This document shows, piece after piece, positions 17,649-23,894 of a stretch of DNA of 64,000 bases. The position numbers were made by a program, and so were the translations under genes. Each line of letters starts with the position of its first letter. The first letter of the stretch is position 1. The DNA comes from Luteococcus japonicus. Lineage in GTDB: Bacteria > Actinomycetota > Actinomycetes > Propionibacteriales > Propionibacteriaceae. The stretch covers positions 1,488,001-1,552,000 of the forward strand of contig NZ_RKHG01000001.1 in NCBI RefSeq assembly GCF_003752415.1. The letters are read 5' to 3'. The notes under the pieces were generated by a model. The model saw nothing but the letters and a program-made list of their open reading frames with translations, ran no database searches and was not told the origin of the DNA.

Positions 17649-19309
17649 GCGCCGGCCATCGCGTTGGCGAGGTCCTCGGTGGGATCGCCCAGCGGCTTGA
17701 GCGCGAACTTGTCCACCAGCACGTCGACGACGGCCGGGGTGAGGAAGGCGGGCAGCGTCGGGCCGAGGCGGATGTTCTTGATGTCGAGCGCCAGCAGGGT
17801 CAGCAGCACGGCGGCGGCCTTCTGCTCGAACCAGCTGACGAACATGCTCAGCGGCAGGTCGTTGACGCCGCAGTCGAAGGCGTCGGCCAGGGCCAGGGCG
17901 ATCTTGACGGCGGTGAAGGAGTCATTGCACTGGCCGATGTCGAGCAGGCGCGGCAGGCCGGCGACGGTGCCGTAGTCGTGGCCGTTGATGCGGAACTTGT
18001 TGCAGCCCATGGTGAGCAGGATGGTGTCGTCGCCCGACTTCTCGGCGATCTCGGTGTAGTAGTTGCGGCCGGGCTTGGCGCCGTCGCAGCCACCGATCAC
18101 CAGGAATCGGCTGATGTCGCCGGCCTTGACGGCCTCGACGATGGCGTCGGCATTGGCCAGCACCGAGTCGTGCCCGAAACCGACGGTGATGCTGCGGGCC
18201 GGGTCCGTGGTGGCGAAGCCGGGCAGCGCCTGGGCGGCCTTGACCAGCAGGCCGAGGTCCTTGTGCTCCAGGTGGCGCACGCCGGGCCAACCCACCGGGC
18301 CCATGGTGAAGATGCGGCTGCGGTAGCTGGGCTGCGGTTCGATCAGGCAGTTCGAGGTCATCACGATCGGGCCGGGGAAGGCGGCGAACTCGGCGTGCTG
18401 GTTCTGCCAGGCGCTGCCGTAGTTGCCGGCCAGGTGCTCGTACTTGTTCAGGCCCGGGTAGCCGTGGGCGGGCAGCATCTCGCCGTGCGTCCACACCGTG
18501 ATGCCGGTGTCCTTGGTGGCTTCGAGGATGGCCGCCAGGTCGCCGAGGTCGTGGCCGCTGACCAGGATGGCCTTGCCCTCGACGGGGGTGACGCGCACCT
18601 GGGTGGGCACGGGGGTGCCGTAGACGCCGGTGTTGGCCGCGTCGAGCATCTCCATCACCTTGAGGTTCAGGCTGCCCAGTCCGAGGGCGTGGCCCAGCAG
18701 GCTGTCGAGGTCGGTGGGCGGGTCGCCGAGGAAGGCGAGCGCCTTCTCGATGCCGGCGTCGGTCTCGTCGGTGCGGTGACCCAGTGCGTGGGCGTGGTGG
18801 GCGTAGGCGCACAAACCCTTGAGGCCGTAGAGGTTGAGGTTGCGGACGCCGACCACGTCGGCGCCCAGCACGTCGATGTTCACGTCGACGCGCACCAGCG
18901 GCGCCTGCTTGAGCAGACCGGCCATGCCGGGGTCGGGCACGAACTGGGCGGCTCCCTCGGGCACGACGGGCGTCTCGCCGGCCTCGGTGCAGGCGGCTTC
19001 GTAGCGGGCCTTGAGCTCGTCGCGCAGGACGATCGCGTCGGCGATCATGCGCTGGAAGACGGTGGCGTTGAAGTTCACATTGGTGAGGGTGGTGAAGACC
19101 CAGTAGGAGGCGCGGTGGGCCCATGTCGGGTCGACGACGCCCTTCTCGCGCAGCAGCACGGCGTACTGGCCGATGCCTTCACAGATGACGATCAGGACGT
19201 CCTGCAGCGTGGCGGTGCGGTCATCCTTTCCGCAGTTGCCCTTCACGCTGTGGCAGCCCAGCAGCAGGTTGTCGCTCCGGTCGGTCTGTTCGCACTGGTA
19301 GCAGAACAT
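17645..19309 (-). CDS. hcp: Hybrid-cluster protein (hydroxylamine reductase / NO-related)
   Basis: Hcp carries a 4Fe cluster plus a 4Fe-2S-2O hybrid cluster. It reduces hydroxylamine in vitro and acts on NO in vivo. The 554-residue protein begins [11 protein letters not shown] with cluster cysteines C3, C6, C19 and C26. Later motifs include [25 protein letters not shown] and [12 protein letters not shown], which provide hybrid-cluster ligands. I chose ATG 19309 because GGAG lies 6 bp upstream; ATG 19321 is also possible. It heads an operon with hcr and is divergent from disA. The presence of Hcp implies that anaerobic or nitrosative conditions are met. Confidence 0.95.
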
Positions 19310-19345
19310 GGGGTGCTCCATCCGTGGGATCCGTTGTTTGTCACG

Positions 19346-19359
19346 GACACTAGCGTGTC
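19346..19359. promoter_or_regulatory. Inverted repeat between hcp and disA
   Basis: gacac-tagc-gtgtc is a perfect 5-bp dyad in the 103-bp divergent region, 37 bp upstream of hcp. A minus-strand TAGTGT that could be the hcp -10 box overlaps it. The cognate regulator is not known. Confidence 0.4.
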
Positions 19360-19412
19360 TATTGGTTGGTGTCATCCAAGGCAGACCTCGCCCACCCACT
19401 ACCATCGAACCC

Positions 19413-20489
19413 ATGGCACTGTCCCCCGCTGAGATCCAGGCCCGGCCCCGTCGTTACCAGGCACTGCTGGCGCCGGGCACGCCACTTCGCGAGGGGCTCG
19501 AACGCATCCTGCACGGACGGACCGGCGCGCTGGTCGTGCTCGGCAGCAACCGGAAGGTGGACCGAGTCTCCACCGGCGGCTTTGCCCTGGACGTGCAGTT
19601 CACCCCCACGGCGCTGCGGGAACTGGCGAAGATGGACGGGGGGATCATCCTGTCCAGTGACTTCGAGCGCATCCTCGCCGCCGGGGTGCACTTCGTTCCC
19701 GACGGCTCCATCCCCACCGTCGAGACCGGCACCAGGCACCGCACCGCGGACCGGATCGCCCAGCAGACCGGAATGCCGGTGGTCACCGTCTCCGCGTCGA
19801 TGTCCACCATCGCGCTCTTCCTCGACGGCCAGCGCCACCCCATCGAGACCTCCGAGGCTATCCTCTCGCGCGCCAACCAGGCCCTGGCCACCCTCACCCG
19901 CTACCGGGAGCGCCTCAGCGGCACCACCCGATCCCTGTCCACCCTCGAGGTGCATGACCAGGTGAGCGTGAAGGACGTCGCCCTGGTGGCGCAGCGGATC
20001 GAGATGATCCGACGGCTGGACCGCGAGCTACGTGCCTATGTCGCTGCACTCGGCGTCGACGGGCGGCTGCTGGAGATGCAGCTCTACGAGCTGACCCTCG
20101 GCGTCGACGACCTGGCCACCCTGCTCGAGCTGGACTACCGACCCGAGGAGCAGGAGGAGATGACCTTCCGGGTTGGTGCCTTGGAGCACCTGGACTCCAC
20201 CGAGCTGCTGGATCCGCACGTCGTCGCCCGCCAGATGGGCTTCGGCGAGGGGATGCACCTGGAGACCCGGCTGGAGCCGCGCGGCCACCGGCAGGTGGCG
20301 CAGTTGACGCGGATCCCGGGCAGTCTCGGCCGCCGCTTGGTGGACCACTTCGGCACCCTGCAGGCCCTGTTCGGGGCCTCGACGGCGGACCTGCTGGAGG
20401 TGGAGGGCTTCGGCGAGGGCCGTGCCCGCCTGGTCCGCGAGGGACTCGCCCGCCTTGCCGAGGCCGCCTTCAGCGAGCGCCTGGACTGA
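19413..20489 (+). CDS. disA: Diadenylate cyclase / DNA integrity scanning protein DisA
   Basis: DisA makes c-di-AMP from two ATP while scanning DNA and is inhibited by recombination intermediates. The 358-residue protein has the N-terminal DAC domain with MDGGIIL (normally DGA; the third residue is Gly here) and [12 protein letters not shown] central helical spine and a C-terminal helix-hairpin-helix region follow ([40 protein letters not shown]). ATG 19413 gives the family start. It belongs with radA functionally. Downstream it converges on the DUF559 gene across a long palindrome. Confidence 0.96.
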
Positions 20490-20493
20490 GGCA

Positions 20494-20572
20494 AGTATTC
20501 GGAACAGATCCCAATCCGCTCCCCAACGCAATAGATGCACTGGGGAGCGGATTGGGATCTGTCCTGAATACT
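20494..20572. repeat. Long palindrome, copy 1 of a 66-bp duplicated element
   Basis: Two 32-base arms (20494-20525 and 20541-20572) pair with only two mismatches around the 15-base loop acgcaatagatgcac. The inner 66 bp (20503-20568) recurs at 21510-21575. It sits between the convergent stops of disA and the DUF559 gene, whose stop codon begins inside the right arm. It may serve as a terminator, but its duplication suggests a mobile element. Confidence 0.9.
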
Positions 20573-21426
20573 CATGCGGCGGGTTTGGTTCCCCGTCGCG
20601 CTCCCCACCACTGGTCTCCGCGGCGAATCATCGCCAGCAAGGCCTGCTCCGTGGCCGGACAGTCGTGAACGACCTGCTGGTAGGTCAGCCGAACGACGAT
20701 GTAGCCCATGGAGCGCAGTTCCAGGTCTCGTCGGCGATCCGCCTGATAGCGCTCCTCCCCGGTGTGGTGCTCCCGGCTGTCCACCTCGATCACCAGTCGC
20801 TCTCCCACCAGGAAGTCCACCCGGGTGTCCTTGCGCAGCCAGACCTGGGGTTTCAGCTGGACACCCTTGGCACGCAACCGGAGCCGGACCATGGTCTCCG
20901 TCCCGGACTCCGCCGCGTCGATCAGGGCCAAGCTGTCCTCCCGGCCACGCACCCACCCCCACGCGCTGCGAATGTCCCCCACCGTGCAGATCTTGCGATG
21001 GACCAAGGAGTCGCACACGACGATCAGGTCCTCCCGGTCCAGACAGCGCCAGGCCGCAGAGAGCGCCGTCGCCAAGTCATCGACGGCTTGGGCCGGTGCC
21101 ACCTCAAATCGGGACGACAAGGCATGACATCGTTTGAGTCCGGCGGGCAAGGGCATCGTCCGGTTGTGATCGCGGCGCACGTGCAGGACCCCTGCGGTGA
21201 CGTCCCAGCCGCCATGGAAGGCGATTGCGGAAGCGCAGGTCAGCGCCCCACCGGAACGGACGGCCCGCTTCACGGACTCGTCGGCGCCCACCGTCGCGTA
21301 CCAACCGGGCCGTAGCCGTTCCAGGGTTCCCGAGGCCACGGCCCTCGCGATCAGGTTGCCGTCGATGCCCTGTTCCTTGAGATCTCGCGTGCGGGCGATG
21401 CCGCCCGTGAACTGATTGCTCTCCAT
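20572..21426 (-). CDS. AbiEi-like / DUF559 (PD-(D/E)XK-fold) nuclease-domain protein
   Basis: This 284-residue protein has an N-terminal winged-helix-like region (TRDLKEQGIDGNLIARAVAS, LERLRPGWYATVGA), a middle segment seen in AbiEi-type antitoxin-like proteins, and a C-terminal DUF559 domain related to Vsr. The nuclease motif reads TRVDFLVGERLVIEVDSREHH (Asp, then ExD), followed by QADRRRDLELRSMGYIVVRL. These are the expected catalytic and helix residues. No toxin partner is adjacent. The gene is a single cassette between two copies of a 66-bp palindrome and separates disA from mutY. Function is unknown; DNA cleavage is inferred from the fold. Confidence 0.82.
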   Translation of the reverse strand: MESNQFTGGIARTRDLKEQGIDGNLIARAVASGTLERLRPGWYATVGADESVKRAVRSGGALTCASAIAFHGGWDVTAGVLHVRRDHNRTMPLPAGLKRCHALSSRFEVAPAQAVDDLATALSAAWRCLDREDLIVVCDSLVHRKICTVGDIRSAWGWVRGREDSLALIDAAESGTETMVRLRLRAKGVQLKPQVWLRKDTRVDFLVGERLVIEVDSREHHTGEERYQADRRRDLELRSMGYIVVRLTYQQVVHDCPATEQALLAMIRRGDQWWGARRGTKPAA

Positions 21427-21509
21427 GCCCCTTCAGTTTCGAAATCGGGGGGCCAGAATTTTCACCTGTCCACAGGCTCGTCCGCCTCCTGTCCCTGTGG
21501 AAAAGTCGA

Positions 21510-21575
21510 AACAGATGCAGATCCGCTCCCCAACGCAATGGATGCACTGGGGAGCGGATTGGGATCTGTCCTGAA
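21510..21575. repeat. Long palindrome, copy 2 of a 66-bp duplicated element
   Basis: This copy has the same length as copy 1, with the loop acgcaatggatgcac and about four to six differences confined to the left arm and loop. It lies 84 bp upstream of the DUF559 start and 9 bp after the stop of the next minus-strand gene. The two copies are 1,007 bp apart in direct orientation. Confidence 0.9.
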
Positions 21576-21583
21576 CAGCCGGG

Positions 21584-22300
21584 TCAGGCCTTGGGCATGA
21601 CCACCATCGTGTCAGGCTCGGCCCCGTCCATCGTGGCGCTGACCCGGTAGGTGCCGGGACGCAGCACCTGGGCGTCGAGCTTGCAGCCGTCGTGGGAACG
21701 CTTGCCCTGCCAGGTCACCTTGGCGGCGAAGGACTTGCCGCCGGTCAGGTCGGCCTTGCCCTTGGGCGCCCAGGCGGGGCAGTGCACGGTGGTCCAGATC
21801 CGGTCGCTACCCGAGGTGACGGCCAGCTGCACCGGGGTCTTGGCCAAGTCCAGCGTGCAACCCTTCTCGCTCTTCATCGTGATGGTGTAGGCGGCGCCGG
21901 CACCGATCTTCGGTGACCGGGAACCGTCGAGGGACAGGCTCACGTCGCCGCCCTGGCACTCGGCAGGCGCGCTGGGTGTGGGGGTGGGCGTCGGGCTCTG
22001 GCTGGGGGTCTGGCTGGCACTGGCCGACGGCGTGCTCGACGCACTCGCACTCGCCGAAGGACTCGCGGAGGCCGACGCGCTCGGGGAGGCCGATGGGCTG
22101 GGCGTAGCCTCGGCGCTGGCCAGCGACGACGGGTTCTGCGGCGTGGCAGCGACGGTGGAACGGTCGTCACCGCCGAACAGGCCGGACAGCACCCACCAGA
22201 TCAGCCCGAGGGCCAGCAGGAAGGCCACGACGAAGATGCCGCGTCGCAACCAGTAGGTGTTCTCAGGCTCCGGGCCGGACGGGTGGATCACCGAGTTCAT
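21584..22300 (-). CDS. Membrane-anchored protein with Ser/Pro/Ala-rich linker and extracytoplasmic domain
   Basis: This 238-residue protein has a short cytosolic N-terminus (MNSVIHPSGPEPENTYWLRRG) and one transmembrane helix (IFVVAFLLALGLIWWVLSGLF). A low-complexity linker of about 70 residues follows, made of SPSASPSASA and TPTPTPS runs. The C-terminal domain of roughly 110 residues has four cysteines (ECQGGD, KGCTLD, VHCPAW, DGCKLD) and a beta-rich, Ig-like character. I do not recognise the family. Orientation suggests the domain is outside the cell on a cell-wall-spanning stalk. Divergent from mutY. Confidence 0.75.
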   Translation of the reverse strand: MNSVIHPSGPEPENTYWLRRGIFVVAFLLALGLIWWVLSGLFGGDDRSTVAATPQNPSSLASAEATPSPSASPSASASASPSASASASSTPSASASQTPSQSPTPTPTPSAPAECQGGDVSLSLDGSRSPKIGAGAAYTITMKSEKGCTLDLAKTPVQLAVTSGSDRIWTTVHCPAWAPKGKADLTGGKSFAAKVTWQGKRSHDGCKLDAQVLRPGTYRVSATMDGAEPDTMVVMPKA

Positions 22301-22337
22301 GCACCGATCGTAGGGTTGGTGGGCGGCTTTGCCTACC

Positions 22338-23234
22338 ATGGCTCGCGTGATCCAGGACAACGAACTCACCGAAGACGCACGCCGCCGCATCGTGGCCCGG
22401 GTGGGTGACTGGTTCGACGAGCACCGCCGGGACCTGCCCTGGCGCCGCTCCACGCCGTGGGGCGTCATGGTCAGCGAGTTCATGCTGCAGCAGACGCCCG
22501 TCTCCCGGGTCCTCGGCCCCTGGCAGGAGTGGATGGAGCGTTGGCCCGCCCCCGACGACCTGGCCAGCGAGCAAGCCGGTGCCGCGGTGGCAGCCTGGGG
22601 CCGGCTCGGCTACCCCAGGCGCGCGCAGCGGCTGCACCGCGCCGCCACCGTGATCAGCGAGCAGCACGCCGGCCGAGTGCCCGGGACCCTGGAGGAGTTG
22701 CGGGCCCTGCCCGGCGTCGGGCAGTACACGGCGGCCGCCATCCTGTCCTTCGCCTTCGGCGGGCGCGCGGTGGTGCTGGACACCAACATCCGTCGCCTGC
22801 TCTGCCGCGTGGAGGACGGCCGGGAGTTCCCGCCGGACTCGGCCACCGCCTCGGAATGGCGCCGGGCGGAAGACTGGCTGCCCGACACCGACGAGCGCGC
22901 GGCGCACTGGGCGGCCGCGTCGATGGAGCTGGGAGCGCTGGTCTGCACGGCCCGCAGTCCGCGCTGCGAGGACTGCCCCGTCAAGGATTCCTGCCGCTGG
23001 CGGGCCGCCGGACACCCGCGGCACGACGGACCCCCGCGTCGCACCCAGGCCTGGCACGGAACCGACCGCCAGTGTCGCGGGGTGCTGCTTGACCTGGTCC
23101 GCCAGAACCCCGAGGGCGTCACCGTCGAGGTGGCGCTTGGGGCCTGGGCGGAACGGGTTCAGGCGGAGCGCTCACTGGCCGGGCTGCTGGCCGACGCGCT
23201 GGTCCGCGACGACGGTGGCCTGCTGCGGCTGTGA
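22338..23234 (+). CDS. mutY: A/G-specific adenine glycosylase MutY
   Basis: MutY removes adenine mispaired with 8-oxoguanine. The protein is about 298 residues. It has the catalytic glutamate in SEFMLQQTPVSRV, the helix-hairpin-helix LPGVGQYTAAAIL, the catalytic Asp in VVLDTNIRRLL, and a C-terminal [4Fe-4S] loop CTARSPRCEDCPVKDSC. ATG 22338 is the likely start; an in-frame TTG lies three codons upstream. The C-terminal MutT-like domain is short compared with E. coli, as is usual in actinobacteria. Its last 63 bases overlap the 3' end of the convergent DUF998 gene. Confidence 0.95.
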   Translation: MARVIQDNELTEDARRRIVARVGDWFDEHRRDLPWRRSTPWGVMVSEFMLQQTPVSRVLGPWQEWMERWPAPDDLASEQAGAAVAAWGRLGYPRRAQRLHRAATVISEQHAGRVPGTLEELRALPGVGQYTAAAILSFAFGGRAVVLDTNIRRLLCRVEDGREFPPDSATASEWRRAEDWLPDTDERAAHWAAASMELGALVCTARSPRCEDCPVKDSCRWRAAGHPRHDGPPRRTQAWHGTDRQCRGVLLDLVRQNPEGVTVEVALGAWAERVQAERSLAGLLADALVRDDGGLLRL

Positions 23235-23894
23235 TCCCCACCAACGCCAGGCCAGCACCATCAACAGCGCGGTGGTGAGCAGCAACTGGCCGCGTTGGAC
23301 GAGGCCCATCATGTCCATCCGGACGCCGGGCAGGTGGGCGGCGAGGGTTGCCGCCAACAGGCCCAGCCACAGCACGAAGAGCGCGCCGAGCACCATGCGG
23401 CCCTCCCACCCGATCCAGCAGCGCACCCGCTGACGACGCCACAGCAGAACCGCGAAGGCCACGCCGAGGGCCGTGACCGCCACCGTGCTTGTGCCGGTGT
23501 GCGCCAGGTGGGTCCACGGCACCTGCCAGCTGGCCTCCCGGGCGGCGCATTCGGCGTCGCGGGTGGCCACACAGCTCATCGGACACAGGGAGTCGGCGAC
23601 GGTGGCCAGCCCGAAGAGCGCCAACAACCGGAAGGCCCAACGCTCGTGACGCCAGCTCGGGCTCCTGCGCAGCAGGAGCAGGGCCACCAGGCCGGCCACC
23701 GTCATGCTCACTCCCGCCAGGGTGTCGCCCATGCGGAAGAGCAGGGCGTGGGGTTCACCGTTGGCCCCCAGCTCGCTGACATAGGAGGTCCGGGGCGAGA
23801 GCTTCGTCGGCAGCAGGAGTTCCAGCAGCCACACGGAATAGAACAGGCCGCCCAGCATCATCAGCCCGGCCGAGACCCGTCGCGCGCTCCTCAT
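23172..23894 (-). CDS. DUF998-type polytopic membrane protein
   Basis: This 240-residue protein has about six or seven transmembrane helices. It shows the DUF998 pattern YVSELGANGEPHALLFRMGDTLAG after the first helix, a cysteine pair region SLCPMSCVATRDAEC in a loop, and HLAHTGTSTVA. DUF998 proteins have no assigned biochemical role. ATG 23894 is preferred over 23927. The 3' end overlaps mutY by 63 bp tail to tail. Confidence 0.8.
   Translation of the reverse strand: MRSARRVSAGLMMLGGLFYSVWLLELLLPTKLSPRTSYVSELGANGEPHALLFRMGDTLAGVSMTVAGLVALLLLRRSPSWRHERWAFRLLALFGLATVADSLCPMSCVATRDAECAAREASWQVPWTHLAHTGTSTVAVTALGVAFAVLLWRRQRVRCWIGWEGRMVLGALFVLWLGLLAATLAAHLPGVRMDMMGLVQRGQLLLTTALLMVLAWRWWGSQPQQATVVADQRVGQQPGQ

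Follow-up and report, generated by a model that had tools for sequence, protein, structure and literature searches.

The DNA analysed here, a window of 64,000 nucleotides from Luteococcus japonicus, contains a DUF559 nuclease gene bracketed by two copies of a long palindrome. This unit is probably the gene-bearing member of a nuclease-palindrome partnership that resembles REP/RAYT systems, in which a non-HUH nuclease recognises, and perhaps spreads, cognate palindromes located at the 3' ends of genes.

The nuclease gene, its palindromes and the empty site

Palindrome copy 1 (20494-20572) is 79 nt long, not 66 nt as stated in the initial annotation. It consists of two 37-nt arms (20494-20530 and 20536-20572, 89% complementary) separated by a 5-nt spacer, and includes a 59-nt conserved core (20504-20562). 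Copy 2 (21506-21575, core 21511-21569) measures about 65 nt as a whole, with 27-nt arms (21511-21537 and 21543-21569) that are 81% complementary. The copies were aligned as a direct repeat (20499-20568 with 21506-21575, starts 1007 bp apart) and were 93% identical over 70 nt, in agreement with the spacing and the common origin claimed earlier. When folded as RNA, the two strands gave z = -11.2 and -13.9 for copy 1 and z = -6.4 and -5.8 for copy 2, and in each case 0/200 shuffles were equally stable. The core 18-mer (up to 3 mismatches) was matched four times in the window (0.15 expected). In copy 2 the left arm is of type B (ACAGATGCAG) and the right arm of type A. Mixed copies, in which the left arm is type B (GCAG), the right arm is type A (CCCR) and an internal mismatch results, occur both at 21506-21575 and at L020:1501-1561; they look as though assembled from one half each of two palindrome types.

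Only one gene lies between the copies, as had been annotated: a minus-strand gene (20572-21426) for a protein of 284 aa. Copy 1, on its 3' side, is 4 nt from the stop codon of disA (19413-20489, plus strand), the 3' end of which forms the conserved edge of the insertion. Beyond copy 2, which is on its 5' side, comes a lipoprotein-like gene that matches no Pfam family (21584-22303, minus strand) and has its stop codon 8 nt from the copy; a mutY-like DNA glycosylase gene (22341-23234, plus strand) follows as part of the conserved neighbourhood. No intron was detected in an Rfam scan of 19000-23500; matches to three microRNA models and one snoRNA model were all under the gathering scores and were taken as chance.

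The protein is an AbiEi-like winged helix fused to an EDxHD/Vsr-like nuclease. The Pfam families AbiEi_4 (residues 6-44), DUF559 and MTES_1575 (both residues 178-266) were all matched above cut-off, which bears out the initial assignment. The AlphaFold2 model (pLDDT 92.7) matched the folds of the AbiEi antitoxin 6y8q (E 8.9e-6) and of 3r3p, the catalytic domain of I-Bth0305I (TM 0.76 of target, E 2.9e-4); Vsr was a weaker fold match (1vsr, E 0.012). Profile searches retrieved 3hrl (2e-8) and 3r3p (3e-5). Residues E177, D204, E214, D216, H221, D230, R233 and D234 are among those invariant in 37 sequences, and we take them to be the counterparts of the Vsr/EDxHD active-site residues. No AbiEii partner was present among the immediate neighbours (disA and the gene without Pfam match). 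Two paralogs in the same genome (L104:3252-4103 and L105:3344-4186) are 65% and 54% identical to the protein, the second with an in-frame TAG, and no palindromes were found near either of them.

DisA was present in 34 of 37 genomes (own genome included), and the lipoprotein-like gene was matched at 16 of the 29 disA loci of relatives. DUF559 matches were found at 0/29 of these loci (up to 1.5 kb on each side). In one genome of the same genus (G001), the lipoprotein-like gene comes immediately after disA, with coding ends about 40 bp apart. The unit is therefore an insertion, at the level of genes, into a conserved gap; the order disA/lipoprotein-like gene/mutY is conserved. The proposed interruption of the disA-mutY neighbourhood is supported, and an empty site was recovered at gene level. 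The covariance models of the palindrome (R1 and R2, see below) had no match in G001, a genome 79% complete.

Dispersal of the palindromes

At least ten palindrome sites were located in the 3.45-Mb L. japonicus genome by BLAST with copy 1 and by the covariance models R1 and R2; the tenth was found by R2 only (40 bits). The models were applied to first-look candidates (150 of 3100 for R1 in the own genome, 23 of 1403 for R2), and weak copies may have been missed. The eight copies outside the unit lie alongside unrelated genes, without a DUF559 neighbour. By names read from translations, these genes encode a formamidopyrimidine-type glycosylase, an SLC13-type transporter, ArgS, LysS, GalE, a dihydroorotate-dehydrogenase-like protein and an M15-type peptidase, and one remained unnamed. 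The nearest stop codon was 2-39 nt from all eight copies according to the heuristic gene caller.

The copies of this genome align over the 59-nt core and end in ACAGAT/ATCTGT, and no GTAG/CGTC tag was seen by eye. Their outer arms look conserved and their inner stem is variable. Stem pairing is kept despite sequence change: 84.6% of cells were paired (33-45% in slid controls), double-change cells numbered 69 (43 in shuffles) and the covariation score was 0.292 (0.180 in shuffles), in counts for which each palindrome was entered on both strands, so that cells are not independent. Two other measures showed no excess over shuffles: the pairs that underwent a double change (15, against 16.6 in shuffles) and the additional pair types (38, against 44). 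Neither R1 (37 genomes) nor R2 (197 genomes) gave a strong match outside the own genome: the best R1 match was in one other genome (G004, 31.7 bits), and R2 matched three other family genomes at 29-31 bits.

Several further observations were made in the own genome. A weak match (18.7 bits) is located at 1639777. All ten sites found lie within G000:C1 1346122-2741026, which represents 40% of the chromosome; for nine independent places, such clustering in one arc has a chance of about 0.006 (uncorrected). ACAGATSC was considered as an uptake-type repeat and rejected, with 109 matches against 60 for the reversed-pattern control, part of them being the palindromes themselves.

In each of three further clades tested, the palindrome was dispersed through the own genome in at least one genome (one query per clade; distinct positions counted after strand merging). 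Enemella dayhoffiae has 15 sites of its own palindrome, 13 of them solo, and this palindrome was absent from four other genomes, including that of E. evansiae. With the palindrome of Mycolicibacterium frederiksbergense as query, 6 sites were found in that genome and 10, 5, 4 and 7 in four other mycobacteria; in the remaining four of the nine mycobacteria, two had the DUF559 flank only and two had none. The six Herbiconiux genomes (L120 and L152 belong to the same genome) have 17, 12, 8, 3, 2 and 0 sites, and the genome with two sites has the bracketing pair only. Herbiconiux ginsengi carries 16 solo copies, a count that includes a 31-nt match and leaves out a 19-nt match. Between two Herbiconiux genomes, five pairs of solo copies share flanks, and 5/10 and 1/6 solo copies do not; these were not counted for movement, as one genome is a MAG and the cut-offs differ.

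The solo copies are located mostly behind genes. The heuristic gene caller placed 45 solo copies from four genomes as follows: 24 between convergent genes, 16 between tandem genes, 2 in divergent gaps and 3 inside genes, with a median distance of 16 nt to the nearest 3' stop codon (n = 40). For 17 mycobacterial sites (duplicate strand rows merged) the classes were 7 convergent, 3 tandem, 3 divergent, 2 inside and 2 unresolved. These assignments are rough: 2 of 11 sites classed twice disagree, and copy c5, read as intergenic, was called inside a gene.

The initial annotation had treated the pair as a private two-copy cassette, from which recombination would excise the gene. The direct-repeat arrangement of the palindromes 1007 bp apart suits such a cassette, as do the similar spacings of bracketing pairs (1011-1104 bp) in five other genomes; eight of the ten copies in the own genome are without the gene, however, and 13 solo copies in E. 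dayhoffiae and 16 in H. ginsengi make a simple excision cassette extremely unlikely. Since the eight extra copies lie after unrelated genes, an outcome that the initial annotation had itself named as counting against its reading, the pair is no private cassette. The link between palindrome and DUF559 gene, for its part, is real and general (45 palindromes within 500 bp of the gene in 80 loci, see below), although eight own copies are without DUF559. By analogy with REPs and RAYT genes, a dispersed palindrome family and a link to the DUF559 gene can both be true.

Association of palindromes with DUF559 genes

DUF559 relatives (E<=1e-8) were present in 41 of 117 family genomes (own genome included), with a single match in 27 of the 41. 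At several of these loci the gene has strong palindromes on at least one side, and their sequences are very dissimilar. For a wider survey, contigs were searched with a 19-protein alignment, after a single-protein query had given no match, and the best 80 of 199 confirmed loci were retained with flanks of up to 5 kb. By record title, 78 of these loci come from Actinobacteria; the other 2 lie on Acidobacteria MAG contigs, and one of the two (L148) shares synteny with Microbacteriaceae loci.

In a strict scan (ungapped, Watson-Crick), the 500 bp on either side of the gene held 45 long palindromes of 49-94 nt, the more distant flanking DNA held 9 (79 and 669 kb, 0.57 vs 0.0135/kb), and the DUF559 gene itself held none. 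Palindromes next to other DUF559 genes, for which the initial annotation had suggested looking, were thus found at 36/80 loci, with 44/80 lacking one; a gapped self-reverse-complement scan (score >=24) gave 50/80 positive and 30/80 negative loci (0.82 vs 0.073/kb). The excess persisted in intergenic DNA as delimited by the heuristic gene caller (1.41/kb near the gene, from 41 palindromes in 29.1 kb, vs 0.039/kb far from it, from 4 in 102.8 kb), and with one vote per synteny cluster (15.3/40 clusters positive vs 0.54 expected). An RNA-fold window scan of the same loci was dropped as too permissive in GC-rich DNA: the first cut-off gave no real excess, and stricter cut-offs gave near/far ratios of 1.7- to 8.5-fold.

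Related palindromes were present across the gene in 21 of the 36 positive loci, a partner being accepted if it outscored the best of 10 far segments by 5 points or more. Twelve loci, including all five mycobacterial ones, had no partner, and three stand outside the partner count: L140 and L147 exceed the null by less than 5 points, and in L111 a third copy inflates the null. This third copy of the flanking palindrome (L111:6697-6769) lies 929 bp beyond the gene. A plainer hairpin-versus-hairpin test gave related pairs in 12/80 loci. Tsukamurella tyrosinosolvens has three DUF559 paralogs: at two (L286 and L287) the inverted repeats 5' and 3' of the gene correspond in sequence, each locus having a sequence of its own, and for the third (L285) no pair was detectable by BLAST, with resemblance by eye only.

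Stem sequences differ among genomes. The tip contains TAT/ATA in 27/45 near palindromes (5.8% of random flank 14-mers, 11% of arm 14-mers; loci partly non-independent) and CTAT/ATAG in 16/45 (1.8%). Among the far hairpins the corresponding values were 3/9 and 2/9, and 3/9 own-genome tips have TAT/ATA. In the 33 clusters for which orientation could be resolved, the genes on either side of the unit were convergent 17 times, tandem 15 times and divergent once.

The position of the solo copies (median 16 nt past stop codons, 24/45 between convergent genes) and the high stability of the hairpins would also suit bidirectional terminators or insulators, with DUF559 genes merely needing strong insulation. 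We consider this unlikely, because 22/45 near palindromes lie 5' of the DUF559 gene, because the sequence is common within a genome and differs between genomes, and because long hairpins were found at 13/29 DUF559 loci against 4/29 disA loci. In addition, a disA-downstream hairpin used as control was not dispersed in two genomes of another family, where it matched its own site and otherwise only 22-29 nt elsewhere (one hairpin; 40/82 and 40/65 candidates scored). An order-level relative carries a hairpin of 93 nt close to disA (L064:1135-1227), which possibly belongs to another dispersed palindrome family.

The median distance from the region of homology is 133 bp for palindromes on the 5' side of the gene (palindrome end to homology start) and 33 bp for those on the 3' side (homology end to palindrome start). 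The former distance, together with the binding of AbiEi antitoxins to palindromes in their own promoters described in PMC11062541, fits operators of the AbiEi-type winged helix, by which the protein would regulate itself and control other genes. This reading is improbable as a full account: an equal share of palindromes (23/45) lies 3' of the gene, solo copies follow stop codons and only 2/45 are in divergent gaps, and a variable yet complementary inner stem is superfluous for an operator. Use as operators could exist alongside the partnership of nuclease and palindrome.

Y1 transposases (PF01797; RAYT/IS200) were found in 0/13 genomes with such palindromes and in 5/14 of the control, which excludes RAYT and IS200 enzymes as the agents of movement in these genomes. 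It is very unlikely that another, unrecognised element moves the palindromes, with the DUF559 gene as a passenger or as one that came to lie next to them. Synteny is frequent among DUF559 genes and many of their loci are without palindrome, as such a scheme would allow, but the palindrome excess centres on the DUF559 gene in the 80 loci and the Y1 transposase (the PF01797 search) is absent from the 13 genomes. The synteny of many loci itself means that the gene rarely moves there. Matches to DUF559 were found in 3/72,556 plasmid records, all of one T. tyrosinosolvens assembly (NZ_LR134468.1, NZ_LR134454.1 and NZ_LR134466.1); these records, deposited as "plasmids", carry pheA and other genes and look chromosomal, and were not counted as plasmid carriage. 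One of 50,697 phage records had a match.

Proposed mechanism and comparison with known systems

We infer the following course. Most likely the nuclease acts as a dimer that binds both of the conserved outer arms of the long palindrome and cuts or nicks at or near the tip. Nuclease-dependent copying would carry the palindrome to other sites, where it lies mainly just 3' of stop codons. The nuclease gene itself sits between two copies and in several lineages has long kept its place. Cutting may drive the spread of the palindromes, homing of the gene into solo copies, or no more than their maintenance. A bolder version is less likely than not: a new mobile system in Actinobacteria without HUH transposase, in which a dimeric AbiEi-EDxHD nuclease would cut the TAT tip of its own palindrome and solo palindromes at gene ends would act as homing sites. 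Break repair using the bracketed copy would place the gene inside a solo palindrome, with a copy on each side, recombination between these two would restore the solo copy, and each nuclease lineage would carry and reshape its own family. If the partnership is true, a non-HUH nuclease has cognate dispersed palindromes and such partnerships arose more than once; a function is suggested for the family that carries the annotation 'AbiEi antitoxin domain' or DUF559; and the spread of the palindromes and their preference for gene ends become testable questions.

The closest likeness is to REPIN/RAYT systems. According to PMC3733652, REPs are dispersed, extragenic and mostly downstream of genes, and RAYT genes are flanked by REPs; the movement of GTAG REPs is ascribed there to the Y1 transposases of RAYT genes, and CGTC REPs lack a transposase of their own. 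A text search of that paper for Actinobacteria and Mycobacteri gave no match. RAYTs are single-copy and inherited vertically, as stated in PMC8049555, a further resemblance. In the present system, too, an enzyme gene is flanked by a dispersed palindrome (own genome and three clades; 36/80 loci) that is extragenic and downstream (40/45 solo copies convergent or tandem, 10/17 mycobacterial sites). Unlike REPIN/RAYT systems, it was found in Actinobacteria, its enzyme is an AbiEi-like winged helix with an EDxHD/Vsr-like nuclease, and no Y1 transposase was detected in 13 genomes; its hairpins are 49-94 nt long, have outer arms that are conserved and frequently show TAT at the tip, whereas REPs are of 20-40 bp with a GTAG/CGTC tag. 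The absence of Y1 transposases (0/13 genomes) equally separates it from IS200/IS605 elements.

The nuclease domain resembles that of I-Bth0305I by profile and fold, and the latter, according to PMC3943268, appears to form a dimer on its target of nearly 60 bp, which is about as long as the palindromes. In contrast, the present gene stands on its own between other genes, encodes an AbiEi-like domain at the N-terminus and has palindromes on its flanks. The N-terminal winged helix is shared with AbiE type IV toxin-antitoxin systems, whose AbiEi antitoxins bind palindromes, but a fused nuclease domain stands in place of an adjoining AbiEii. The palindromes differ from intrinsic terminators in that their sequence is common to ten sites, while the one control hairpin was not dispersed. 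Solo LTRs and MITE-like derivatives arise from elements with a gene-bearing copy between two terminal repeats and solo repeats elsewhere. The present unit has the same layout, but each repeat is a full palindrome and no target duplication was recognised by eye (the transposase search covered PF01797).

No paper among the literature matches listed, from a search with most subscription literature outside it, describes a partnership of this nuclease and palindromes. We take it as new in kind because the defining enzyme of REP-RAYT systems was sought and was absent, while the anatomy resembles theirs; with more weight on anatomy, it may be counted as a variant of REP systems. The comparison points to a partnership unreported so far, which resembles REP elements and their transposase and is built on an unrelated enzyme.
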